In this document: piece by piece, positions 3,789 through 20,232 of the stretch | Position numbering within the stretch: the first letter of the stretch is position 1 | How the letters are laid out: each line of letters opens with the position of its first letter | Position numbers and translations under genes: made by a program | IMG/VR virus record: IMGVR_UViG_3300020410_001426 | Coordinates: 1 to 20,590 of that record | Strand: one strand, 5' to 3' | Origin: a virus | DNA length: 20,590 nucleotides | The notes under the pieces: model-generated | Told to the model about the DNA's origin: nothing | Database searches by the model: none | The model's input: the letters and a program-made list of their open reading frames with translations, nothing else

Positions 3789-6700
3789 CTACCCCAACAT
3801 CCTAAAGAACCTTGAGATGCTTCGGGAAGAGAAGCCCCACTGTTCACTATGATCAAGGCGAGCCATGTAAGCTCGATTAAGATGAATGTTATCCTTGCCC
3901 GGACGAACACCCCAACACTTGATGTGGCTAATGACATTGTTCTCGTCGATGACCTGAACAACCCAGTATGTCTTTCCGTTCTTTGTTTGGCGAGGTGTTA
4001 CCTTGCGAGGAATAAACCAAGCGGCACCGAGCATCGGGTCAAAGTCGGAAATGGGGGGAACACCAAGATCACGAAGCTCGTTGGTAATACTCTCATCGAC
4101 AACCAAGTGCATCGGGAACACACCTGTAAGATTCGTAAGATTCTCAATCTTCTCCTCAGTGGAGAAGTCTCCCTCTGGGTGGTACTTTGTGATGTTCTCT
4201 GTGAGGTCTTTTTCCTTACGAGGACGCTCAACGGCGACTGCGGTCCAGAAGTGTTTGGAGCCGGAGAATCGATCATCTTTAAGACAGTCCAATGCATGAG
4301 AACGGACGAGGACATCAAGTGCCTTCTTGTTCAGCTTGCTGTAAGTCATCTTCTCGTTAAAGAGAAAGTCTTCAATCTTGTTGAACGGACGACCAGCAAA
4401 GACCTGATCAATTGCCGAATCGCCAAGACCCTTAACAGATGTCAGAGGCTGAATGAGGGTTGTGCCATCGTCGGAGTACTCCCAAACCTTTCCGGAAGTA
4501 TTCACATTGAGAGACTGGATACTGTATCCGAGACTCTTCGCCGTGTTGATAGCTGCCTCTTTGCGACCTTCTGGTTCTTTATCCAAGAATGCGGCAATCC
4601 ACTCTGTCTGATGATACTTCAACAACCATGCACACTGGTAAGACAATGTGGCATAAGAAATAGCATGAGATGCGTTAAAACCATAGCCGGAGAAGAATTC
4701 CATCTTCTTCCAGAGATCATCGGCATCCTCAACTCGAATACCCTTGTCTTCGCAACCCGCGATGAACTTGTTGCGAATTCGTTCGAGGTCTTTGGCACCC
4801 TTGCCGGTACCCTTCTTTGTGAGAAGTTTACGAAGCATATTGCCCTCGTCAAGAGAGACTCGGCGGCCTAGCTTGTGAGCAAGCAAAGCCAACTGCTCCT
4901 GGAACACAATGAAGCCATAAGTATCTTCGAGACACTCTTTGACAACAGGGTGGATGTACTCAATCTCATCTGGGTTTGACTTTGCGGCGACATAGAGGTC
5001 GTGCACGTTCGCAGACAAGGGACCTGGGCGATAAATCGCTGTAATGGCTGCAAGGTCAACGAGGCTTCGAGGCTTCGCATCCTTGCAGAACTTTTGGGCA
5101 CCGTGTTGTGTGAACTGGAATACACCTGCCCACTTACCCTCATGAAAGACACTCTCCCAGACAGACTGGTCTTCGAAGTCAATCACATTCGGATCGAGGT
5201 GCTTATCGTAATATTCTTTTACATCCGCGAAAGTGGGCTCCTTGATATTGAGCTTGCTCTTCAGGATGTGGCGAATTGCACCCTCAATCATGCGAAGAGA
5301 AGCCAAACCAAGAATATCAAACTTAATGAAGCCCATTGGCTCCAAGTGACGAACGTTCATACCTTCAGACCACGGAGTCTGTCGCACACCGCCAGAAGCG
5401 ATGAGGGGCATATACTGATCAAGATTCTCACCGACGAGCACACCACCAGCATGACGGGAACACGAACGAACGGAGCCGTACAGTTTCATAATATGTGTCT
5501 TGATGTGGGGATATTTAGAAAGAAACCCACGGAGACTGTCCGAGTATTCAATCAACTCTTCAAAAGTCGGAGTATACACACCAGCGGAGATATTGTTCGC
5601 TGCTTTGGCACGAGGGGTTGCCTCGGAAAGCATGCGACTGGTCACTTGGTTGACCTCGGAGAAGTCAATCTTGTAGAACTTTGAAATATCCTTGATGAGA
5701 GAGCGAAGCTGGAGGGTGTTCCAGTTTGAAATAGGAACAACAACATTGTCACCCCACTCATCAATCAGCAAATCTTTAAGCTCCATTGGGTCGGCGACGT
5801 CGTAATCAATATCGGGATAGTCGACGGCATCTTTACGAAGGAATCTCTCAAACTGGAGGTTGTATTTGATGGGATCAACCTGAGTGATGCTGAGGCAGAA
5901 AGCGACGAGGGAACCTGCAGCGGAACCTCGACCTGCACCGACGAGCTGCACCTCTTGTGCCTTGTCGGAGATCGCCTTCATTGTCAGGAAGTATTTACTA
6001 AAACCACGAGAGGAGATGACATCGAACTCTTTTTCGAGCCGCTTCTCGTAATTCTTCTTACCCATCAGACCCCGCAGACGAAGACCCTCCTGAGCATAGG
6101 ACCAGAGGGCTTCGTCTGCAGTGCAGTCTGCGGGGACAACAAAGTCAGGTAGGCGAACAGTGCTGTCAGGGAAGAAGGCTTCCACCTTCTTGTGTGCGAT
6201 CTCGTAAGTTCGCTCGACACTTTCAATGAGTAGCTTTTCGTCATACTCGACCCCTCTGGGAAACAGGGGTTTGTCGTTTTCGCGATAGATCCAGTTCTCA
6301 GACTGAGTGTACTTACGGATCGCTTCAACCATCTCGTCACCATTCTTGGGATACAACTCGCAACGAGTTTGGTCGATAGAGTCGGGGAGAGTGGCTTCCT
6401 CAAGTCCCCCCTTGGACAGCCAGCCAAGTTTCCTGTAAAGTTCCCGGTCTTTCCAGGAATCCTTGTCGGGATAGTGACTGTCCGATGTGGATACGAGCTG
6501 AATGCCTAGCTCGCCACACACCTTGATGACGAACTTATTAATGGCATGCTGGTCGGGAATGGCATTCCACTGCACCTCTCCATAAAAGTTGTCACCAAAG
6601 ATTTCTTTAAAACGGGTTGCGGTCTTGGTCATCGCCTCGATGACTGCCTCCTCGCCCTGTTCGCGGTTTTTCCAGTAATCGCTGGCAAACACACCGCCCA

Positions 6701-7256
6701 TGCAAGCACTGGAAACAATAATACCCTCTTTGTGTGCTTCGAGAGTGTCGAAGTCGAGGCGAGGGTAACGATAGAAGTTCTCCGGAGTATAAGACTTGGA
6801 GATCATTGTAAAGAGGTTGCTTAAGCCTTTCTGATTAGCGGCAATAAGAACAAGATGACTACGACGAGAAAGAATATCTTTAACAGCACTTTTACTAGCT
6901 TCTTCATCTTCAACTGTTGTTCCCGATGCCTCTGCATCTTTTTTTGCCTTCTTCTTATCTAGTTCGGCGGCTTCTTTTTCTTTGTGCCATTCTTGCAAAC
7001 TTGGAACAAAATATGCCTCGCAACCATAGATCGGTTTGAAGTTCTTGCCAGCATCGTGCATCTTCTTGGCATGAAGCACCTGATAAGCAAGACCATTCAT
7101 GTTGCCGTGGTCGGTCAAAGCAAGGGCATCCATGCCATTATTGTATGCGGAGTCCATGTGCTCTTGGGGATAACCAAGGGCATCAAAGGGGGAACCCGCA
7201 ACACTGTGTGCGTGAAGACCAACATACTTTACTTTTGGAGACAATCTATCCATCAT
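3789..7256 (-). CDS. dnaE: DNA polymerase III alpha subunit (DnaE type)
   Basis: A 1155-residue family-C replicative polymerase, full bacterial length (about 1160). The N-terminal PHP domain (about 10-300) shows LHAHS (His15, His17), Asp25, LTDHG (His50), GCEAY (Glu80), SHLVL (His134), SSACMGG (Cys185) and TSDSHY (Asp259, His261). This matches the complete nine-ligand metal set of PHP domains that proofread. It is interrupted by a charged Lys/Glu insert (91-125). The catalytic core has GAGRGSAAGSLVAF (440-453), PDIDYD with Asp482 and Asp484, SRHAGG, and FIKFDILGL with the third Asp647. GVFQFTQ and YRPGPL follow. An OB-fold-like region lies near the end (about 1070-1140). No clear tau-binding extension is seen. 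It is driven by a consensus promoter just upstream. AGAGG precedes the two adjacent ATGs at 7256 and 7253. Confidence 0.96.
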   Translation of the reverse strand: MMDRLSPKVKYVGLHAHSVAGSPFDALGYPQEHMDSAYNNGMDALALTDHGNMNGLAYQVLHAKKMHDAGKNFKPIYGCEAYFVPSLQEWHKEKEAAELDKKKAKKDAEASGTTVEDEEASKSAVKDILSRRSHLVLIAANQKGLSNLFTMISKSYTPENFYRYPRLDFDTLEAHKEGIIVSSACMGGVFASDYWKNREQGEEAVIEAMTKTATRFKEIFGDNFYGEVQWNAIPDQHAINKFVIKVCGELGIQLVSTSDSHYPDKDSWKDRELYRKLGWLSKGGLEEATLPDSIDQTRCELYPKNGDEMVEAIRKYTQSENWIYRENDKPLFPRGVEYDEKLLIESVERTYEIAHKKVEAFFPDSTVRLPDFVVPADCTADEALWSYAQEGLRLRGLMGKKNYEKRLEKEFDVISSRGFSKYFLTMKAISDKAQEVQLVGAGRGSAAGSLVAFCLSITQVDPIKYNLQFERFLRKDAVDYPDIDYDVADPMELKDLLIDEWGDNVVVPISNWNTLQLRSLIKDISKFYKIDFSEVNQVTSRMLSEATPRAKAANNISAGVYTPTFEELIEYSDSLRGFLSKYPHIKTHIMKLYGSVRSCSRHAGGVLVGENLDQYMPLIASGGVRQTPWSEGMNVRHLEPMGFIKFDILGLASLRMIEGAIRHILKSKLNIKEPTFADVKEYYDKHLDPNVIDFEDQSVWESVFHEGKWAGVFQFTQHGAQKFCKDAKPRSLVDLAAITAIYRPGPLSANVHDLYVAAKSNPDEIEYIHPVVKECLEDTYGFIVFQEQLALLAHKLGRRVSLDEGNMLRKLLTKKGTGKGAKDLERIRNKFIAGCEDKGIRVEDADDLWKKMEFFSGYGFNASHAISYATLSYQCAWLLKYHQTEWIAAFLDKEPEGRKEAAINTAKSLGYSIQSLNVNTSGKVWEYSDDGTTLIQPLTSVKGLGDSAIDQVFAGRPFNKIEDFLFNEKMTYSKLNKKALDVLVRSHALDCLKDDRFSGSKHFWTAVAVERPRKEKDLTENITKYHPEGDFSTEEKIENLTNLTGVFPMHLVVDESITNELRDLGVPPISDFDPMLGAAWFIPRKVTPRQTKNGKTYWVVQVIDENNVISHIKCWGVRPGKDNIHLNRAYMARLDHSEQWGFSSRSISRFFRMLG

Positions 7257-7361: not shown

Positions 7362-7583
7362 TCGGTGAATGTGGATCATGTGTATTTGACCAAGGTGGTA
7401 AATTTGAGCAAAGGTGTAATATTTTGGTGTGCTCTTCGCCACCAGACCGACTTCGTACTCATCAACCATTACAATGTCGCCTGCTTTTAGCGACCAATCA
7501 TCAGGTTTCGGAACCGGCTCCTGTATATTCTCTTTTTGTTGTCTCTCTTTGGAAGACTGTGATGCCATTTGCAATGTTTTCAT
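7347..7583 (-). CDS. Unknown 78-aa protein
   Basis: A small protein with a polar Lys/Gln/Glu-rich N-terminus (1-30) and a beta-rich remainder (SLKAGDIVMVDEYEVGLVAK, then YYTFAQIYHL and IHMIHIHRI). It could be a small barrel of the SH3/KOW size, but there is no family match I can name. The start at 7583 has GGTGAT about 5 nt upstream and lies 83 nt inside the end of the nucleotidyltransferase-like gene, a longer overlap than elsewhere in this window. The next in-frame ATG (7568) has no ribosome site. The stop sits in the hairpin before the dnaE promoter. Confidence 0.6.
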   Translation of the reverse strand: MKTLQMASQSSKERQQKENIQEPVPKPDDWSLKAGDIVMVDEYEVGLVAKSTPKYYTFAQIYHLGQIHMIHIHRITKL

Positions 7584-8397
7584 TTTTTATCACCGCATGT
7601 TCTGATGACAGGTATTCTCTATAATTCTCCCATGAATCAATAGGGTAATACCAGTCCAATTCGATCTCGCTTGGATTATCCATTCTAACAGATTTAAAAA
7701 CTTCGTCAAGTGTTGTTTTGTATTTTCTTATTTCCCGACGGGCATAAACAAAGACATCACGGTCGAAAGTGAAACCAGTAAAAAGACCATCAGCAACACA
7801 CTGCCCTTGGTAGGTCAAAATCTGGGAAACGGATGAGCGAAAGTTACCCCTGTTCTTCCTCAGCTTCGCAGTGTCGTAAATCCCATAAGGAAAGGCAATA
7901 TAGTACTTATCCGGGATGAGCCACTTGCTGACACGATAAGACATGCGGAAGGAGTTGATCGCACCTGTGAGTGCACTCCAGCCTAGACTCTCTCGACGTT
8001 GGAAATCCACTGGCTTGAGCTTGACATAGTAAATTGGTATCCTTCTGATGTTGTCGCTTATTTTTGATCTTGGATTGCCGGCAATCTTATCGACCTCGAC
8101 AGGATCATAAATCCAGTCACCAAGGCGGTGACGGATCAGAGGGGTGGTGCCCTCCTTGCAGACGACCCATATGGTATTTACTCCTGCACAGGCACACTCA
8201 TAGACGGCATGCTCGATTGCAAGGTAATTTGGACTAATGGGCATAAGAGAGTCATGCCAGGGCATCTTAAAGTCAAGAACTTCTCCCGTTACTGGGACGA
8301 TACCGGACATGTGAAAGTCTCCGACGGCATACTTGCCTTTCCTAGACTTTCTTTTCTGCCTCAACATCCTTACTTGTTCTAGCTTTTCCTCTTCCAT
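7501..8397 (-). CDS. Nucleotidyltransferase-like protein
   Basis: A 298-residue protein. After a basic N-terminus, the segment GIVPVTGEVLDFKMPWHDSL, then MPISPNYLAIEHAVYECACA and GVNTIWVVCKEG, follows the order of sugar-nucleotide and NTP transferases: a first strand, a lysine, the 'P-(I/V)-x-P...IEH' helix, then 'AGV..I.VV'. The usual glycine-rich GxGTR signature is degenerate (PVTGE). RIPIYYVKLKP and GWSALTGAINSF resemble the second conserved part of the fold. So the fold is a reasonable guess and the substrate is unknown. The ATG at 8397 has GGGAG 5 nt upstream and is chosen over an upstream TTG. It overlaps the preceding gene by 56 nt. Downstream of it comes one small gene and then the dnaE promoter. 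Confidence 0.5.
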   Translation of the reverse strand: MEEEKLEQVRMLRQKRKSRKGKYAVGDFHMSGIVPVTGEVLDFKMPWHDSLMPISPNYLAIEHAVYECACAGVNTIWVVCKEGTTPLIRHRLGDWIYDPVEVDKIAGNPRSKISDNIRRIPIYYVKLKPVDFQRRESLGWSALTGAINSFRMSYRVSKWLIPDKYYIAFPYGIYDTAKLRKNRGNFRSSVSQILTYQGQCVADGLFTGFTFDRDVFVYARREIRKYKTTLDEVFKSVRMDNPSEIELDWYYPIDSWENYREYLSSEHAVIKNENIANGITVFQRETTKREYTGAGSET

Positions 8398-9199
8398 ATG
8401 GACTCCCAAACACTACTTCCAATAGATCATTATAAGGCAACTTTTCATCCTTTTTAAGGTCTATGTCCTTTATAAACTTTATTGTCTTCGTGTTCGCATA
8501 TTCATTGCGGTGCAAAGGCACCTTATCTCGCTGAGAGAATTCGATTTTAAGTGATTGATAAGCCGGCTTACCATTGTAAGCCTGTGTTCCGTTTTTGTTT
8601 CCCTTAAGACCTGCATCCTTCATCATCTCCCTGACCTTGAGAACGGTGTATGTCTCCGAGTAGTCGAGGGACTTTAACTTCTTCTCTGTCAAAACAGAGA
8701 CTGCACAGGCATTTTTATACTGTTTGTGATAGCCGATGCCAGAATAGAAAACCACCTTTTTAACAAAGTCGTCACTGTCTTCGTCGATGAGGTAGTCATA
8801 TGGGTGGTTACGTCCACGGACGACCTTTAGCCAATCAAACACTAAATATTCTTTTTTAGCCTGCTTGGTGGGCAGCGGAATGCCACCTACACCGAGGTCA
8901 TCAACAAGGTGAATCGTCTCGTACTCAATCTCTATCATTCTTGAATTTTCTGTGAAACACTTGATGATTTTCTCATCTTCAATGATACGAATAGAGGTCA
9001 AACCCTTGGCAATTGGGAGTTGTCCGGCAAGAGACAGAAAGAAAGATAAATTTTCCCACTCAGAGCGGTGTTTATCGAGGAAAAAATGCGGTTTCTGCTT
9101 GATGCCGATGACAGGTAGCCCTTTAGAATAGGCATAAGAAAGAGCCTCTAAACTCCCGCCAATAACGATGTTTTTATATGATAGCTTACATGTGCGCAA
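8342..9199 (-). CDS. Unknown 285-aa protein with Rossmann-like N-terminus
   Basis: No family is recognised with confidence. Residues about 8-33 (YKNIVIGGSLEALSYAY and GLPVIGIK) look like the first beta-alpha-beta unit of a nucleotide- or flavin-binding Rossmann fold, with a GGS turn. The rest mixes predicted strands and a Lys/Tyr-rich C-terminal half. No conserved catalytic motif stands out. The likely start is a TTG at 9199, since the only nearby ATG is in another frame, with AGGTG about 4 nt upstream. The stop of the methyltransferase gene is 7 nt away. Position between a nucleotidyltransferase-like gene and two methyltransferases suggests a shared pathway, but this is inference. Confidence 0.65.
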   Translation of the reverse strand: MRTCKLSYKNIVIGGSLEALSYAYSKGLPVIGIKQKPHFFLDKHRSEWENLSFFLSLAGQLPIAKGLTSIRIIEDEKIIKCFTENSRMIEIEYETIHLVDDLGVGGIPLPTKQAKKEYLVFDWLKVVRGRNHPYDYLIDEDSDDFVKKVVFYSGIGYHKQYKNACAVSVLTEKKLKSLDYSETYTVLKVREMMKDAGLKGNKNGTQAYNGKPAYQSLKIEFSQRDKVPLHRNEYANTKTIKFIKDIDLKKDEKLPYNDLLEVVFGSPYGRGKARTSKDVEAEKKV

Positions 9200-9206
9200 A
9201 TGTCAC

Positions 9207-9776
9207 CTATAAAATCTTGTATTTAAACTTGGCACCGTCAGGATAATAACTTGTGGGTGCCTCAAATGTGCCGTCAGGATCAAAACTGTTTGGGCCGCGA
9301 GTGATAAGGAGGCAACCAGCTGGCAAGCGAGAAACAAGACGACTGGATTCTGGGGTCTTAAACATTGTGCCGTCAAAATATGCAACCGTGGCATCGGAAA
9401 AGTCATGGCGGAAGGCATCCCCATGAATCATAACTGGTGGTCTGGCACCAAAATCAACAAGGGAAAATATATCATTTGCATTTTTGACCCTCTGCTCAGC
9501 GAGTTCAATGCCAATTGATTTCGAAACATCCGTCTTCAATGCGATGTGGCTAATGAGCTTTCCCTGACCAGCACCAATGTCATAAAAAACATTACCAGAG
9601 GTAAACCTGTCTGGAAACTTAGATATGATAATTTCGACACCTTCTCTGAGTAGTTCTCCATACACCGCATGCTCTTTCTTAATGAAGATTTGAACTGCAA
9701 GGCGGGTGTCGATTGCATGTCCGTGAACCTTTGCCTCGTACACCTTGTCGAGCTTTTCCTCCACACTAGTCGTCAT
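9207..9776 (-). CDS. DOT1-like SAM-dependent methyltransferase, copy 2
   Basis: A 189-residue class I methyltransferase. The SAM-binding motif VFYDIGAGQGKLISHIAL (63-80), the acidic end of strand 2 (GIEL, Glu91) and the preceding YGELLREGVEIII helix fit the DOT1 histone-lysine methyltransferase layout (YGE..., then YDLGSGxG, then GIE). DATVAYFDG (129-136) sits at the motif IV position, followed by LPAGCLLITR. It is clearly a paralogue of the gene just upstream, since motif order and spacing match, but the C-termini differ. It overlaps that gene by ATGA. A bacterial host has no nucleosomes of the usual kind, so the substrate is unknown; a protein lysine or another nucleophile is possible. Confidence 0.75.
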   Translation of the reverse strand: MTTSVEEKLDKVYEAKVHGHAIDTRLAVQIFIKKEHAVYGELLREGVEIIISKFPDRFTSGNVFYDIGAGQGKLISHIALKTDVSKSIGIELAEQRVKNANDIFSLVDFGARPPVMIHGDAFRHDFSDATVAYFDGTMFKTPESSRLVSRLPAGCLLITRGPNSFDPDGTFEAPTSYYPDGAKFKYKIL

Positions 9777-10399
9777 GTTATCACTCGGTATGATGCCATT
9801 TGGGCCCAGAAGTTCTTGAGGTCGCTGTCGTTTGAAATTGAAGAGGCTAGAGATCGCATGGGGAAAAATGCATCTCCAGTGAACGCTCCGTGGTGGCGAT
9901 AGATTAGAAGACAGCCCGGAGGGAGAAGAGACGTAATTTTAGCAGTCTCTTCGAGTGTGTATCCAATGGGGTCAAAATAAACAATCGTGGCATCTGAAAG
10001 ATCTACATTTCTAAAATCTGCATTAATGATCTGCGGCTGTGTTTGCGGAAACTCCACTTCTTCTGAGATGGCAACAGCCTGGGAAAATCTTTCCTTGTTG
10101 AGCTCGATTCCTGTGATTTTTGACATCTTTGTCTCAATTGCAAGGTGCATGATGAGCTTTCCTTGACCACAACCAAGATCATAAAACACCGCCTTCTTGC
10201 CCATTGACGAGGCAAAGAACCTAATCATACTCTCTGCACCGGATTGCAAGACCTCATTGTAGGTGGCCATGGCGGGATCTTCGAATTCGGGCAACTCAGC
10301 TTTTAAGGCACCCTCGATCCCAAAAGAGTAAATCTTGTCTAATTGTTCTTTTTTAAACTTTTTGGTGATTCTTTTTCTTTTTACTTTTTCAACTGTCAT
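9773..10399 (-). CDS. DOT1-like SAM-dependent methyltransferase, copy 1
   Basis: A 208-residue class I methyltransferase with a very basic N-terminal extension (residues 4-16). Motifs: MATYNEVLQSGAESMI (44-59, equivalent to the DOT1 YGE helix), VFYDLGCGQGKLIMHLAIET (71-90), GIEL (97-100), DATIVYFDPIGY (136-147) and LLPPGCLLIYRHHG. The YDLGCGQG and GIE elements are the strongest pointers to the DOT1 group over DNA methyltransferases, and no (D/N)PPY is present. The first copy has Asp-Pro after the motif IV YF, whereas the second has Asp-Gly, so their active sites may differ. AAAGGAA precedes the start. Confidence 0.75.
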   Translation of the reverse strand: MTVEKVKRKRITKKFKKEQLDKIYSFGIEGALKAELPEFEDPAMATYNEVLQSGAESMIRFFASSMGKKAVFYDLGCGQGKLIMHLAIETKMSKITGIELNKERFSQAVAISEEVEFPQTQPQIINADFRNVDLSDATIVYFDPIGYTLEETAKITSLLPPGCLLIYRHHGAFTGDAFFPMRSLASSISNDSDLKNFWAQMASYRVIT

Positions 10400-10709: not shown

Positions 10710-10982
10710 TCAGAGCCTCACTTCGCAAAGCACATAGTTTGCTTGCAGTAAGTAGTGAGCCTGCCCCTCAAGGGTAATCTCTCGTATCATATTCGGCTCT
10801 GCGACGACAATAGACCCTTCTTGGATCTCCTCTTTTACAGAGTCGTGCACACTAAGAACCTTTGCGACAACATAGTCTTTTCTCTTCTGGTAATCGGCTG
10901 GAAGAAGAACAGAGGACTTTTCCTGCTCTTCTTCCTCGATCATCTCGATGAGAATATGCTTATTCTTTGGCAAGACTTTCAT
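10710..10982 (-). CDS. GroES-like co-chaperonin
   Basis: A 90-residue protein with the layout of Cpn10/GroES. It opens MKVLPKNKHILIEMIEEEE (compare 'RPLHDRVIVKR' in GroES). Next comes a mobile-loop region with SSVLLPADYQKR (23-34), then VVAKVLSVHD, then EGSIVVAEPNMIREITLEG in place of 'VGDxVxF', and YVLCEV at the end. GroES caps the GroEL folding cage. Phage versions (T4 gp31 and others) replace the host cap so that large phage proteins such as the capsid fold. Similarity is by pattern and is modest. It overlaps the upstream stop by one base (TAATG) with GGGGG 8 nt before the start. Confidence 0.6.
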   Translation of the reverse strand: MKVLPKNKHILIEMIEEEEQEKSSVLLPADYQKRKDYVVAKVLSVHDSVKEEIQEGSIVVAEPNMIREITLEGQAHYLLQANYVLCEVRL

Positions 10983-11262: not shown

Positions 11263-13692
11263 CTATCCGCACTTAGCATATCCGCATTGAGTGCATGTTA
11301 CGCAACCATCCTGATAAATAAGACCATCGGCACTGCAGCTTGGGCAGGTTTTATCCGATGCTTTTTCTCCATCAGGAATATACTTCTTCAGAACACGAGA
11401 CAACACTTTATTGAAAGATGTGAAGTCTGTATCCTGATCCTTTAGCAACTGCTCGACGACGAACTTTACATTCGCTCCGTGTCGCAGAGAAAGTGAGATC
11501 ATGCGAGTAAAAATCGCATTATTAGGATTATCAAAGATATTGATAATATCGCTGATAGTCAATTGATCGTCGCCTTCTCCCAAGACCAAATCATAGATTG
11601 ATCTGGTTGTCTTTCTTGGATGCTTCACAATTATACCATGAGTGTATTTGTTTGGCAAGGTAATTTTTGAAGAAAGCCCTGCAAACAGCTCATAAGGCTT
11701 GCCTTCGACAAGACCAACCAAAACAACCCACTTTTCGCCCTTGATCGTGGTTCTATGGATCTCACACTCCACCAAGTCTGGACGGGCTGCAGCATCTCGC
11801 TGTACGAAGCCCTCTTCTTCCTTGTTTGTGTCGGTGACGAGAACACCTGTACGGGAACCGTCCACATATACAGTGATTCCCTTGAGCCCTCGTTTCCAGC
11901 CCTCTTTATAGAGTTCGCCGACAACCTTTGGTTTTGTGCCAGCTGGTAAGTTGATGGTAGAGGAAATTGCATGGTCGATGTGCTTCTGAATAGTCTCCTG
12001 AATCTCCACACGGCGCAACCAATCAATCTGATCTGATTCTACGAAAAAGTCTGGAATCTCCTCTGATGTCTCTCCTGTGTGGAGTTCGTTTTCTTCCCTC
12101 CACTCTTGCACATTGTGGTGGAACACTTTGTATTCCTGCCACTTGTCTCCGACATCATCGATGAAGTCGACTTTCGTCTCTGTGTCGTTGTGGCTGATTT
12201 TGCGACGACGAACATAGAAGTTGCGGAACACGGGCTCAAGACCGGAACTTGTCTGACTCATGATAGACACGGAGCCAGTCGGTGCATTTGTCAGAATTGA
12301 AATGTTTCTACGACCATGCTTTTTGATCAAGTCCTTAATCTCTTGAGGCAATGCTTTGATATAAGCATTATCTTTTTCGATCTCCCAGTCAAAGTGCGGG
12401 AACGGACCTCGCTCAACAGCAAGATTGCAAGATTCTCGGTATGCCTCTGTTTTCAGGGTGCCGTAAATCTTGTCGATGACCTTGATTGCATCGTCACCGT
12501 CATATCGGAGACGCAGGCATGCCAAAGCATCAGCAAGACCGTGAGTTCCAAGACCTGTGCGGCGACCATTAGCTGCGGCATCACGAAGCTTCAGCCAGAG
12601 TGCCTTTTCGTCCTTTGTATCGCAGGAATTCATGATTGATGTAATTTTCTCAATTTCCAATTCCACCAAATCGTCAGAAAGGCGCATTGCTTGCCGCACT
12701 GTGTCGCCAAAAGAGTCAAAATTGAAGGATGCTTTGTCGGTGAAGGGATTCTCGACGAAGTTCTTCAAATTGACAGAAATAAGGCGACAACTATCGTAAG
12801 CAGACAGCGGAATCTCTGCACAAGGATTCGTGCAAATGGTCTTGTATGCTGGATAGTCGTGGGCAGGCAGGTTTTTAGTGATATTGTCCCACATCAAGAT
12901 ACCTGGCTCTGCAGTGGTTGTTGCGGATTCAACGATCTTGTCCCAAGCATCAAGGGCACAGATCTCTTTCGTAATTTTTGGGTTGTCAGAGCCGACAGGG
13001 TAAGTCAATGTAAACTTCTCGTCGTTCTCGACAGCTCGCATAAAGTCATCACTGATTTTAACTGAGACATTTGCACCTGTAACCTTGGTCAAGTCGTGCT
13101 TCATTGTGATGAACTTCTCGATGTCTGGATGGCGGACATCCATTGTGATCATCAGAGCACCACGGCGACCATTCTGACCAACCATGCGGCAAACATAAGA
13201 GTAAAAATCAGCAAAGGACCATGCACCGGTGGTGGTGCCTGCACTGTTGCTAACTGCAGCACCTTCAGGGCGGAGCTGAGAGATGTCAAGACCGACACCA
13301 CAGCGACGTTTAAAAAGGTTTGCCAAGTCCTTACCAGAATCAACAATAGACGATATGTTGTCATCTGGGGATTCCACAACAACACAATTGGACAGGGAAA
13401 CATTAACAAAGTTGTTTCCGATACCATACATGGGTGATCCTTGTGGTACAATCTTTTTAAATCCTTTTATACTCTCGAAAATCTCTTCTTTGGACATTTT
13501 GCTCCCGCCGAACTTATCCTCAATACGAGCAAACTCACCTGCAAGGCGAATGTGCATGTCGTTGGGGTTCGTCTCTTGGAACTGTCCTTCTTTATCTCTC
13601 AGAGCATACTTTGTGATGAAGACATTTGTAGCAAGCTCGTCTCCATCGAAGTACTCCTTGGTTTCTCTCGTCACTGTCTCAATTTTAGGCAT
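11263..13692 (-). CDS. nrdJ: Class II ribonucleotide reductase (adenosylcobalamin-dependent)
   Basis: About 809 residues. It reduces ribonucleotides to deoxyribonucleotides using coenzyme B12 to make the thiyl radical, so it needs no oxygen and no separate small subunit. Visible are QGSPMYGIGNN, the first redox cysteine LSNCVVV (Cys103), the active-site NPCAEIPL (Asn289, Cys291, Glu293), the second redox cysteine in SCRLISVNL (Cys302), and NAPTGSVSIM. A TSCPD-type C-terminal region and a terminal zinc-ribbon/redox tail (Cys783, 786, 797, 800, 803, 808) follow. No N-terminal ATP-cone is seen. The start at 13692 is favoured because GAGAAGGG precedes it; an ATG at 13707 is weaker. The phage depends on host-supplied or salvaged B12. 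Confidence 0.93.
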   Translation of the reverse strand: MPKIETVTRETKEYFDGDELATNVFITKYALRDKEGQFQETNPNDMHIRLAGEFARIEDKFGGSKMSKEEIFESIKGFKKIVPQGSPMYGIGNNFVNVSLSNCVVVESPDDNISSIVDSGKDLANLFKRRCGVGLDISQLRPEGAAVSNSAGTTTGAWSFADFYSYVCRMVGQNGRRGALMITMDVRHPDIEKFITMKHDLTKVTGANVSVKISDDFMRAVENDEKFTLTYPVGSDNPKITKEICALDAWDKIVESATTTAEPGILMWDNITKNLPAHDYPAYKTICTNPCAEIPLSAYDSCRLISVNLKNFVENPFTDKASFNFDSFGDTVRQAMRLSDDLVELEIEKITSIMNSCDTKDEKALWLKLRDAAANGRRTGLGTHGLADALACLRLRYDGDDAIKVIDKIYGTLKTEAYRESCNLAVERGPFPHFDWEIEKDNAYIKALPQEIKDLIKKHGRRNISILTNAPTGSVSIMSQTSSGLEPVFRNFYVRRRKISHNDTETKVDFIDDVGDKWQEYKVFHHNVQEWREENELHTGETSEEIPDFFVESDQIDWLRRVEIQETIQKHIDHAISSTINLPAGTKPKVVGELYKEGWKRGLKGITVYVDGSRTGVLVTDTNKEEEGFVQRDAAARPDLVECEIHRTTIKGEKWVVLVGLVEGKPYELFAGLSSKITLPNKYTHGIIVKHPRKTTRSIYDLVLGEGDDQLTISDIINIFDNPNNAIFTRMISLSLRHGANVKFVVEQLLKDQDTDFTSFNKVLSRVLKKYIPDGEKASDKTCPSCSADGLIYQDGCVTCTQCGYAKCG

Positions 13693-13714
13693 TTTTCCCT
13701 TCTCCATTTCTATC

Positions 13715-18162: not shown

Positions 18163-18191
18163 ATATTAACACAGTACCCAGAACGTGTCAA
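18163..18191 (-). promoter_or_regulatory. Strong extended sigma-70 promoter for the ssDNA-binding gene
   Basis: The -35 TTGACA is at 18186-18191 and the -10 TAATAT at 18163-18168, with a 17-bp spacer and TGT directly before the -10. The match is strong, but the -10 has two mismatches at exactly this register. Transcription would start near 18156 and give a leader of about 58 nt that includes a small GGGG/CCCC hairpin (18123-18137). The -35 overlaps the stop codon of the upstream gene. Confidence 0.82.
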
Positions 18192-19024
18192 GTCGTTTTT
18201 TGTATCACTGCTGATGATTGGATACAAAAAACATGAGGCTCCTCGTAAGATGTTGAATACACTCGGTAAGAGGTCCTCTGCTCGGCATCTCGCTTAGAAT
18301 CAATCTGCTCTCTAATTTTTGAGATAAGATTATTATCGTTTCTAAGTTCAGTGTCGTTTATACCATAATAATACATTCTTTCCTTCGTGTTGTCAAGAGG
18401 AAAGAATGATTTTTCTTGTCCCGTCGTGAAATCGACCATCCCAAGGGTCATAATACGGGAATGATCAATCTTCTCTGAATCTGAGCTCAAGACGGGTTTT
18501 GCATGCTCAAAATAATAAATTAAATTAAGAGAGTTTACGATGTATCCGCGAAAAGTCTCTTCATAGCCAATAATTGGAACATTACCAATCGCAGTTTCGA
18601 TGTCTTTCGCATTCGTCAAGATTACACCAGCAATAACCCCAGAACGAGCATATTCCTGCAAAACATTAAAAATCATTCTTTCAGTAAGGCGAGATTGTTC
18701 GTTTAGGGTGCGCAGGTCGGGTTGAACATATAAAACAGTTGTTTTGCTGCTGGGCAGTTGCTCAAGGACCCTGAGAGTGATGGCGGAAATTAGCTCTCCT
18801 CCCGACACAAGAACAAGACTCTTGCCGGACATACCCTTGAAGAAATAGGATAAGCCAGGACAATTCTGTTCATACTTCTCTGGTGTTTTTTCTTTTTTAA
18901 TGCCTCGTGTTCTCTTGGTCTTTTCCAGACCATGATCAAGCTTGTAGACATCGTAGTTTTTCAATTTTTCGAAATCAGCTGCGAGTTCGCAACCAAGCTT
19001 TCCAATACCAACAATGTTTATCAT
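18188..19024 (-). CDS. Possible divergent tubulin/FtsZ-like protein
   Basis: A 278-residue protein that I cannot assign firmly. The order of elements follows the tubulin/FtsZ GTPase fold. MINIVGIGKLGCELA (1-15) is at the first nucleotide loop. SLVLVSGGELISAITLRVLEQL (69-90) is where the G-box and helix 4 would be. TTVLYVQPDL then RTLNEQSRLTERMIFNVLQEY (105-125) is like 'VVTxPF..EG..R...A...L'. GVILTNAKDIE (133-143) is like 'IxNDRLL'. The YEETFRGYIVNSLNLI helix is like the 'AF..AN..L' helix. The classical GGGTGTG is missing, so GTP binding is doubtful. Alternatives are another Rossmann-type NTP-binding protein. ATGA overlap with polA; GGAG 5 nt before the start. It contains an internal promoter match. 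Confidence 0.45.
   Translation of the reverse strand: MINIVGIGKLGCELAADFEKLKNYDVYKLDHGLEKTKRTRGIKKEKTPEKYEQNCPGLSYFFKGMSGKSLVLVSGGELISAITLRVLEQLPSSKTTVLYVQPDLRTLNEQSRLTERMIFNVLQEYARSGVIAGVILTNAKDIETAIGNVPIIGYEETFRGYIVNSLNLIYYFEHAKPVLSSDSEKIDHSRIMTLGMVDFTTGQEKSFFPLDNTKERMYYYGINDTELRNDNNLISKIREQIDSKRDAEQRTSYRVYSTSYEEPHVFCIQSSAVIQKTT
18368..18396 (-). promoter_or_regulatory. Possible sigma-70 promoter inside the tubulin-like gene
   Basis: The -35 TTGACA is at 18391-18396 and the -10 TATTAT (one mismatch) at 18368-18373, with a 17-bp spacer. Transcription would begin near 18361, about 264 nt before the ssDNA-binding start, and would make a second upstream promoter for that gene. It lies wholly in coding sequence, so confidence is moderate. 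Confidence 0.45.
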
Positions 19025-20232
19025 TTTAGCTCCAACTTTTTCATGCTACCGAAGGTTTTTCCTGCGGATGCACCAACTCTGATCTTTCCGAATCTGGTGT
19101 TCGAAAAAAGATCCACTAGATCCATTATACAGTCTAGTTCAGACTTTTTAAGATCAATTACAATAGAATCATGCAAACAAAATTTTATGAAACTCTCTGT
19201 GCCCTGAAGGTGCTTATAGACCTTTGCCATCTGCTCAAAAACCATATCTGCAGTGGTTGACTGCACGAGGTGGTTTAAGGCTCGGAAGTCATCAGTCTTG
19301 ATCGTCCTCCCCATTGGGGTGGTAACTGAATCTTCCTGGCGGTTGTAAAAAGAGGTCAGGATCTTGTCCTTGTCGTAAAGCTTTTGTATATTTTCTCCAA
19401 TATCGGAGGTCTTCGAGCCATACAGCCAAGAGAGCACGAGCTCTTTCGCTTTTTCTCTGGATACGCCCAGACTTGATGCGTGCCATTGATGTATGTCTCC
19501 TTCTGGTTGCTTCATGCCTGCCAATGCAAGCAATACACGGATTTCCGCTGCATTATAATCGAGCTCAAGCAACAGATCGTTTTCTGGTAAAAGGATCTCC
19601 CTGAAACTCTTGTCTAAATTAAGTATCGGGAAGCTGCTTGATTTTACCGCAAGACGTCCAGTTTTTGTTCTAAACGGATCATATATAATTGTGTTTGATT
19701 TCTTTCCTTGTTTGATTGCCTCGAAAAGATCCCTTGCTCGCTTCTTGTGAAGCATGCCCTTTAGGGCGGCAGGATTGAGGGTTATTTTCCTTTTTTTGAT
19801 GTCGGCGACCATCACCACCAAATCTTTCAATAAATCGTAATTTTGGGGCTTAAGTTGCTCTGCGAACACGGATTTAACGATTCTCGTCTTGAGGTCACAA
19901 TACTCCTTCAAATATTGGTCTGGAATAAGGTCAAAGAAGCAGTTTTCGTTCAAATCAACCTTTGCTTCGACAAAAGAGCTGTGATATGCGGTCATTCTTT
20001 TATTAATCTTATTCCATCTTGCCTTGATTCCCTTTGGGCACACTTCATCGAGTGATTTGCCCTGACAATACAGGTTTGCAAACTCCACCTGATCTGCACC
20101 GATGGAGGCGAGGGAATCTGTATGTTTCCAAGTGTGGGTCAAGCCGTCGGGAATGCCTTGAAAGTGCAATTCACCGTCGCAATAGACCCCGACACACTCT
20201 GATTTGTCGTCGAGGGTTACGAAATGTCTCAT
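19021..20232 (-). CDS. polA: Short family-A DNA polymerase (PolA), polymerase domain only
   Basis: A 403-residue family-A polymerase. It has TKTGRLAVKSS (189-199), motif A LELDYNAAEIRVL (222-234; Asp225, Glu230), motif B SREKAKELVLSWLYG (258-272; Arg259, Lys263, Tyr271), FRALNHLVQSTTADMV (316-331) and motif C CLHDSIVID (352-360; His354, Asp355). Catalytic Asp225/Asp355 are kept. The residue at the E. coli Phe762 position is Leu267, and the Glu after the motif C Asp is Ser356. About 180 N-terminal residues have no visible 3'-5' exonuclease motifs, so the protein cannot proofread by the usual domain. The start has AGGTG about 4 nt upstream, 7 nt after the previous stop. A promoter lies in the upstream gene. 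Confidence 0.9.
   Translation of the reverse strand: MRHFVTLDDKSECVGVYCDGELHFQGIPDGLTHTWKHTDSLASIGADQVEFANLYCQGKSLDEVCPKGIKARWNKINKRMTAYHSSFVEAKVDLNENCFFDLIPDQYLKEYCDLKTRIVKSVFAEQLKPQNYDLLKDLVVMVADIKKRKITLNPAALKGMLHKKRARDLFEAIKQGKKSNTIIYDPFRTKTGRLAVKSSSFPILNLDKSFREILLPENDLLLELDYNAAEIRVLLALAGMKQPEGDIHQWHASSLGVSREKAKELVLSWLYGSKTSDIGENIQKLYDKDKILTSFYNRQEDSVTTPMGRTIKTDDFRALNHLVQSTTADMVFEQMAKVYKHLQGTESFIKFCLHDSIVIDLKKSELDCIMDLVDLFSNTRFGKIRVGASAGKTFGSMKKLELK

Follow-up and report, generated by a model that had tools for sequence, protein, structure and literature searches.

P3 and P4, a conserved gene pair next to dnaE in a group of uncultured T4-like phages

Far-T4 phages, as portrayed in the parts of their description on which we draw, are uncultivated members of the T4 superfamily with a separate replication module (PMC4360716). 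Here we analyse a 20.6-kb virus contig from IMG/VR (IMGVR_UViG_3300020410_001426, positions 1 to 20,590; hereafter, the window), whose replication module, on the minus strand, contains four adjacent genes that we term P1 to P4. We report that two of these, P3 and P4, likely constitute an essentially inseparable two-gene unit that is sited with replication genes. The phages that carry the pair resemble the Far-T4 phages in belonging to the T4 superfamily, in being uncultivated and in having the replication module set apart, but neither the P3/P4 pair nor a DnaE polymerase is described for Far-T4 in those parts of the source, and the two clades may or may not coincide (PMC4360716). At the level of single proteins, the described families that P4 calls to mind are the RmlA/GalU sugar-1-phosphate nucleotidyltransferases (PF00483), those for P3 are flavin adenine dinucleotide (FAD) oxidoreductases of the PHBH/geranylgeranyl reductase type (PHBH/GR2-type), and those for P1 and P2 are DOT1 and the archaeal protein-lysine methyltransferases (aKMT). 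The folds concerned are already known; the P3 and P4 family members are new.

Pairing, position and distribution of P3 and P4

We assembled 118 loci starting from P4, a few of which are repeat views of one contig, and observed P3 in 115 of them; the remaining three end upstream before the position of P3. The two genes lie no more than 200 nt apart in 104 loci, where they mostly overlap or abut and the commonest spacing is -4 nt, and in the P4-first loci beyond these 104 an insert of approximately 0.5-3.4 kb stands between them. Several lineages have genes for Gly/Ala-rich low-complexity proteins inserted at this point (L106, 1132-1620; L062, 5444-5869; L084, 9600-10037). Starting from DnaE, we collected 157 distinct polymerases, 120 of them with at least 3.5 kb of upstream sequence, and both P3 and P4 were present at 118 of these 120. 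One of the two others (L192) contains P4, with P3 farther upstream on the same contig, where it is visible in L056, which brings the loci with P3 and P4 ahead of DnaE to 119 of the 120. The second (L147, from IMGVR_UViG_3300013108_000687) is the sole case of the 120 without P3 and without P4, and its operon reads GroES, a lytic-transglycosylase-like gene (labelled by eye), an 80-amino-acid (aa) open reading frame (ORF) and DnaE. The pairing is strict, the one locus that lacks the pair having neither gene. P3 and P4 are both single-copy in the 12 large genomes that carry them (160-205 kb), all five loci that our search recovered with a single divergent P3 carry P4, and no P3-P4 fusion was found among the collected loci. 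The pair sits in a conserved module between ribonucleotide reductase (RNR)/GroES and DnaE/dUTPase/IMP dehydrogenase (IMPDH), with DnaE downstream of P4 in nearly all loci. Since the proteins are conserved in more than 100 viral contigs, we take both genes to be real and not chance ORFs.

We also compared distance matrices for six genes from each of 38 non-redundant loci. The partial correlation between P3 and P4, given DnaE, DnaB, GroES and dUTPase, is 0.455, a value reached in 0 of 2000 permutations. For comparison, the partial correlation is 0.57 for DnaE and DnaB, 0.35 for P4 and DnaE, and at or near zero for either P3 or P4 with GroES. Co-evolution of P3 and P4 beyond shared ancestry supports a physical or functional unit; it stops short of proof because neighbouring genes share a local recombination history.

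A profile-based scan of IMG/VR contigs found relatives of P4 encoded in at least 586 stretches. Searching 50,697 phage records with four P4 and two P3 queries gave no match, Pfam, PHROGs and NCBIfam contain no family for P3 or P4, sequence searches of the PDB with profiles of both proteins returned nothing meaningful, and a search of the openly licensed literature found no description of the pair. Nearly all matches to P3 and P4 lie on virus contigs. Three occur in bacterial genomes, on short contigs of metagenome-assembled genomes (MAGs) or at one end of a WOR-3 'chromosome'; these appear to be phage sequences that were placed in bacterial bins, and we infer no cellular family from them. In the last of these (L116, CP070664.1:1-12976), a phage segment with P3, P4 and DnaE stands at the start of a 2.8-Mb 'chromosome' of a candidate division WOR-3 MAG, where it may be phage sequence that was mis-binned or joined on, or may point to a host. 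The near-restriction to virus contigs, together with a place in an apparently early replication operon, would suit a host-takeover or counter-defence module carried in that operon by chance. We give this reading little credence, since PADLOC has no match for P3 or P4 and the pair is near-universal and vertically co-evolving, and typical counter-defence genes turn over fast.

The 12 large genomes are those behind L037, L045, L087, L113, L080, L100, L108, L011, L014, L010, L063 and L072. All 12 encode a T4-type gp23 major capsid protein (E about 1e-58 to 1e-63), and none contains a B-family DNA polymerase, in searches whose controls were positive. On these two grounds we assign them to a T4-superfamily lineage in which DnaE is the apparent replicative polymerase. 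In this very common group of uncultured T4-like phages, where DnaE appears to have taken the place of the B-family polymerase, two families that are missing from the reference collections named above belong to the core genes.

Predicted folds, conserved residues and possible function

The AlphaFold2 model of P3 has a predicted local distance difference test score (pLDDT) of 90.0 and a predicted template modelling score (pTM) of 0.80. Compared with the PDB by Foldseek, it matches flavin monooxygenases and reductases, with a best E of 2.5e-6 and low template modelling (TM) scores of about 0.3-0.4, and BFVD contains two structural relatives, both unnamed. The model resembles the PHBH/geranylgeranyl reductase-type enzymes in its N-terminal beta-alpha-beta turn and in a general flavoprotein-like topology; however, besides the low TM-scores, its dinucleotide motif differs from theirs. 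The first glycine is present in 64 of 65 sequences, the second in only 15 (with serine in 28), and the third position is mostly alanine (53 of 65), a relaxation of GxGxxG to G-x-[S/G]-L-x-A. Because of the low TM-scores and the relaxed motif, we describe P3 as having a flavoprotein-like predicted fold and do not claim that it binds FAD. About a dozen polar residues are near-invariant in each of P3 and P4, among them D122, H132, D163, S168, N203 and R224 in P3. UDP-galactopyranose mutase was considered as a parent of P3 and rejected for want of profile support. So was the Nalpha-GlyT lyase gp47 of phage PaMx11 (8z79), itself counted among these FAD oxidoreductases, which is nearly equal in length (286 aa, against 285 for P3) and ranks 38th in the Foldseek list with an E of 1.3e-4, but has no profile similarity to P3 and a low TM-score.

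For P4, modelled with 82 family sequences (pLDDT 85.9, pTM 0.86), the top 50 Foldseek matches in the PDB are all of the RmlA/GalU type (E 8e-8, probability 1.00, TM about 0.5). Comparing profiles with hhalign, we observed a match to GalU/RfbA/GalF (E 1.4e-4, prob 52) over 56 N-terminal columns, which read 'IVPVAG...LMPI...ECA.AG..TIW.V'. PF00483 is the commonest sub-threshold Pfam match for the family, yet no member passes its curated cut-off: the best E among the 82 members is 0.012, and in the genome-wide scan the P4 of L011 reached an E of 0.0013, scoring 15.2 bits where the cut-off is 21.2. The sequence signal for kinship with RmlA/GalU is therefore weak but correctly placed. The resemblance in predicted fold and in these first columns does not extend to the active site, for the GxGTR nucleotide loop, the PK lysine and the motif-III metal aspartate are all replaced across the 82 sequences, and the columns at the lost signature sites read G-Q-P-L-D-F, W-H-D and F-P-Y-G. 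Near-invariant polar residues of P4 include H29, D49, E67, R89, D98, D131, R135, D136 and R183. On the model, then, P4 has an RmlA/GalU fold that lacks the catalytic signatures of that fold, and we reject canonical sugar-nucleotide synthesis on account of their loss. Were P4 nevertheless an active sugar-nucleotide pyrophosphorylase, as a fold whose matches are all of the RmlA/GalU type might lead one to expect, the pair would supply an activated sugar with which DNA is glycosylated or the host surface altered. This we consider improbable: besides the family-wide replacement of the signatures, the gene lies in a replication module and not among surface or glycosyltransferase genes, and in 3 of the 12 large genomes canonical PF00483 proteins, above the cut-off, are encoded elsewhere.

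The original prediction, read from the DNA letters, had given P3 a nucleotide- or flavin-type first turn and P4 a degenerate nucleotidyltransferase fold, and had named no known counterpart of the four-gene set. The structural models and their Foldseek matches bear out that turn and that fold, and the database searches agree with the last point for P3 and P4.

The simplest explanation for an obligate pair with nucleotide-type scaffolds, placed in the replication module beside RNR, dUTPase, IMPDH and DnaE, is that it acts on nucleotides or DNA. Being encoded together, almost without exception, just ahead of the polymerase, the two proteins probably have a core role in copying or modifying the DNA of these phages. 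We tentatively propose that P3-P4 is a two-protein enzyme of the replication module that acts on nucleotides or DNA in an uncultured T4-like clade with DnaE, and we favour an enzyme because of the conserved polar residues in both proteins. On this proposal, which builds on the observed pairing, dnaE adjacency, single copy, near-universality and co-evolution and on the predicted folds, P3 and P4 would form a complex as an obligate unit of the module. P4 would derive from sugar-1-phosphate nucleotidyltransferases and keep the nucleotide-binding-type fold of the GalU/RmlA scaffold, its pyrophosphorylase signatures replaced by a new set of invariant polar residues, and P3 would act as its flavoprotein-like partner. 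P4 might bind a free deoxynucleoside triphosphate or else DNA, at a base or an end, and the two proteins jointly would carry out or regulate some modification of nucleotides or of DNA while phage DNA is being made. The stronger statement that the pair is a hitherto undescribed enzyme of two components that modifies nucleotides or DNA, with new active sites on a GalU/RmlA and a flavoprotein-like scaffold, and is core to replication in an abundant DnaE-using T4-like lineage, seems to us rather doubtful.

Several observations weigh against this proposal. With the nucleotidyltransferase signatures gone from P4 and GxGxxG relaxed in P3, both proteins could be pseudoenzymes, and the structural matches of P3 have TM-scores of just 0.3-0.4. 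The shared local history of linked genes inflates the co-evolution of neighbours, and the L147 lineage, seen in 18 kb of sequence, apparently does without the pair. HMUDK (PF18723) and thymidylate synthase/dCMP hydroxymethylase (PF00303) are both absent from the 12 large genomes; with these marker families missing there, hypermodification by way of hydroxymethyl-pyrimidines is not indicated.

The nucleotidyltransferase fold is reused without catalysis in GMPPA and in eIF2B subunits, a precedent for P3-P4 being catalytically dead and serving the DnaE replisome as an accessory in a structural or regulatory role, for instance by tethering the polymerase, by sensing nucleotides or as an adaptor for processivity or for the helicase. 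Owing to the lost catalytic signatures, such an accessory is nearly as likely as the enzyme, although we would still call it unlikely. The relaxed motif of P3, the position directly before dnaE, the partial correlation of P4 with DnaE, and T4-like genomes that lack a B-family polymerase and so imply a replisome unlike that of T4, all point towards it; on the other hand, the many invariant polar residues in both proteins are more typical of active sites, and the Foldseek lists contain no clamp, clamp-loader or other replisome fold. The enzyme proposal and this alternative make the pair a specific target in these phages: does it represent a hidden modification of DNA or nucleotides, or a new replisome component?

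Methyltransferase genes beside the pair

P1 and P2 are paralogues (39.8% identity over 166 aa). Both score above the Pfam cut-off for DOT1 (PF08123) and, in the alignment, contain the class I motif I and a GIE motif as in DOT1. In structure-chain searches their profile matches the DOT1-family chain 9ne1 (E 7.6e-15) and the archaeal protein-lysine methyltransferases 5fa8 (1.8e-14) and 5jwj, so that the archaeal enzymes are about as close as DOT1; both proteins nevertheless fall far below the cut-off of the NCBIfam archaeal methyltransferase family. DOT1 has an NNF motif, and at the corresponding position P1 and P2 differ from it in reading D[N/P/G]xx[Y/F]. They are probably protein methyltransferases. 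Of the archaeal enzymes, aKMT4 methylates the MCM of archaea (PMC4639711).

In the neighbourhoods that we collected, methyltransferase genes occur in only five contigs. All five belong to the same subclade as the window; a tandem second copy was observed in the window alone, and each of the other four contigs has one copy. The DnaE-first loci yielded methyltransferases in only three cases, all on contigs already counted, with the limit that many of these loci have just 4 kb upstream and a distant copy would escape. The close relatives L003, L004 and L037, whose P3 and P4 are 53-57% and 70-72% identical to those of the window, have no methyltransferase at this slot. In other lineages the interval between GroES and P3 carries other, unrelated genes, including ThyX; it is a variable insertion slot. 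In our reading, P1 and P2 are recent accessory genes outside the P3-P4 unit. The methyltransferases change much more quickly than the genes around them: the window shares 42-51% identity with L001/L002 in the methyltransferases and 82-87% in P3 and P4.

These observations bear on the suggestion, made in the original prediction, that P1 to P4 form one set serving a single modification pathway. The tight coupling of four adjacent genes through an ATGA overlap, a 7-nt gap and a 56-nt overlap holds on verification of the coordinates (the last with the P4 start at 8397), as does the reading of P1 and P2 as DOT1-like paralogues, and in L001 and L002 a single methyltransferase stands directly before P3. 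However, nearly all P3-P4 loci lack methyltransferases, the three close relatives above included, P1 is far less conserved towards L001/L002 than is the pair, and the slot is filled by other genes elsewhere. The prediction had itself named failure to co-occur in related phages as refuting, and in those phages the methyltransferases do not accompany P3-P4. We reject the four-gene unit on the co-occurrence data and regard a shared four-gene pathway as very improbable, with a two-gene P3-P4 unit the likely alternative; the analysis separates a real conserved unit from the accessory methyltransferases that lie beside it.

Gene layout of the window

In order, the replication module of the window has a family-A polymerase fragment, an orphan protein, a gp32-like single-stranded DNA-binding protein (SSB), RecA, a 5'-3' exonuclease and DnaB. 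There follow RNR, a 96-aa protein, a GroES-like protein, a small putative membrane protein and P1 to P4, and then DnaE, dUTPase, a Dam-type methylase, IMPDH and a sigma-region-4 protein. The ORFs of P1 to P4 are all on the minus strand and span 10399-7501 (Table 1). P1 and P2 overlap in ATGA at 9776-9773, and the gap between P2 and P3 occupies 9206-9200. From alignments, P4 probably starts at the conserved ATG at 8397 and not at the TTG (8409) of the ORF list; with that ATG, P3 and P4 overlap by 56 nt.

Table 1. Positions of P1 to P4 and of conserved neighbouring genes in the window
Feature	Position	Strand	Length	Assignment	Evidence or remark
P1	10399-9773	minus	208 aa	DOT1/aKMT-like methyltransferase, accessory	PF08123 E 2.7e-6
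P2	9776-9207	minus	189 aa	second DOT1/aKMT-like methyltransferase, accessory	PF08123 E 3.7e-9
P3	9199-8342	minus	285 aa	orphan, flavoprotein/Rossmann-like predicted fold	TTG start; first half of conserved pair
P4	8397-7501	minus		orphan, RmlA/GalU (NTP_transferase) predicted fold	second half of pair
P3-P4 reading-frame overlap	8342-8397	minus	56 nt	putative translational coupling	
DnaE	3789-7256	minus		DnaE-type DNA polymerase III alpha subunit	Pfam DNA_pol3_alpha, finger, PHP, HHH; conserved neighbour downstream of P4
GroES-like	10710-10982	minus		Cpn10	PF00166 E 3.4e-6; upstream edge of variable slot GroES-P3; in 96 loci
Ribonucleotide reductase	11263-13707	minus		replication module	PF02867 E 2e-95

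Some further features of the window were observed. A low-complexity repeat at the contig end (5-366) is readable on either strand as Ser/Ala- or Lys/Leu-rich sequence. The family-A DNA polymerase fragment (403 aa, 19021-20232) occurs in a phage that also has DnaE. Adjoining the gp32-like SSB is a 278-aa protein (18188-19024) that is conserved in 17 loci and has no match in Pfam, NCBIfam or the PDB. A phage IMP dehydrogenase/GMP reductase (1112-2137) is kept downstream of dUTPase in 62 loci. Finally, two types of RNR swap at one position of the module (11263-13707 in the window; L044, L084): one, found in the window, has approximately 810 aa, and the other has 620-750 aa with B12-dependent class II domains.

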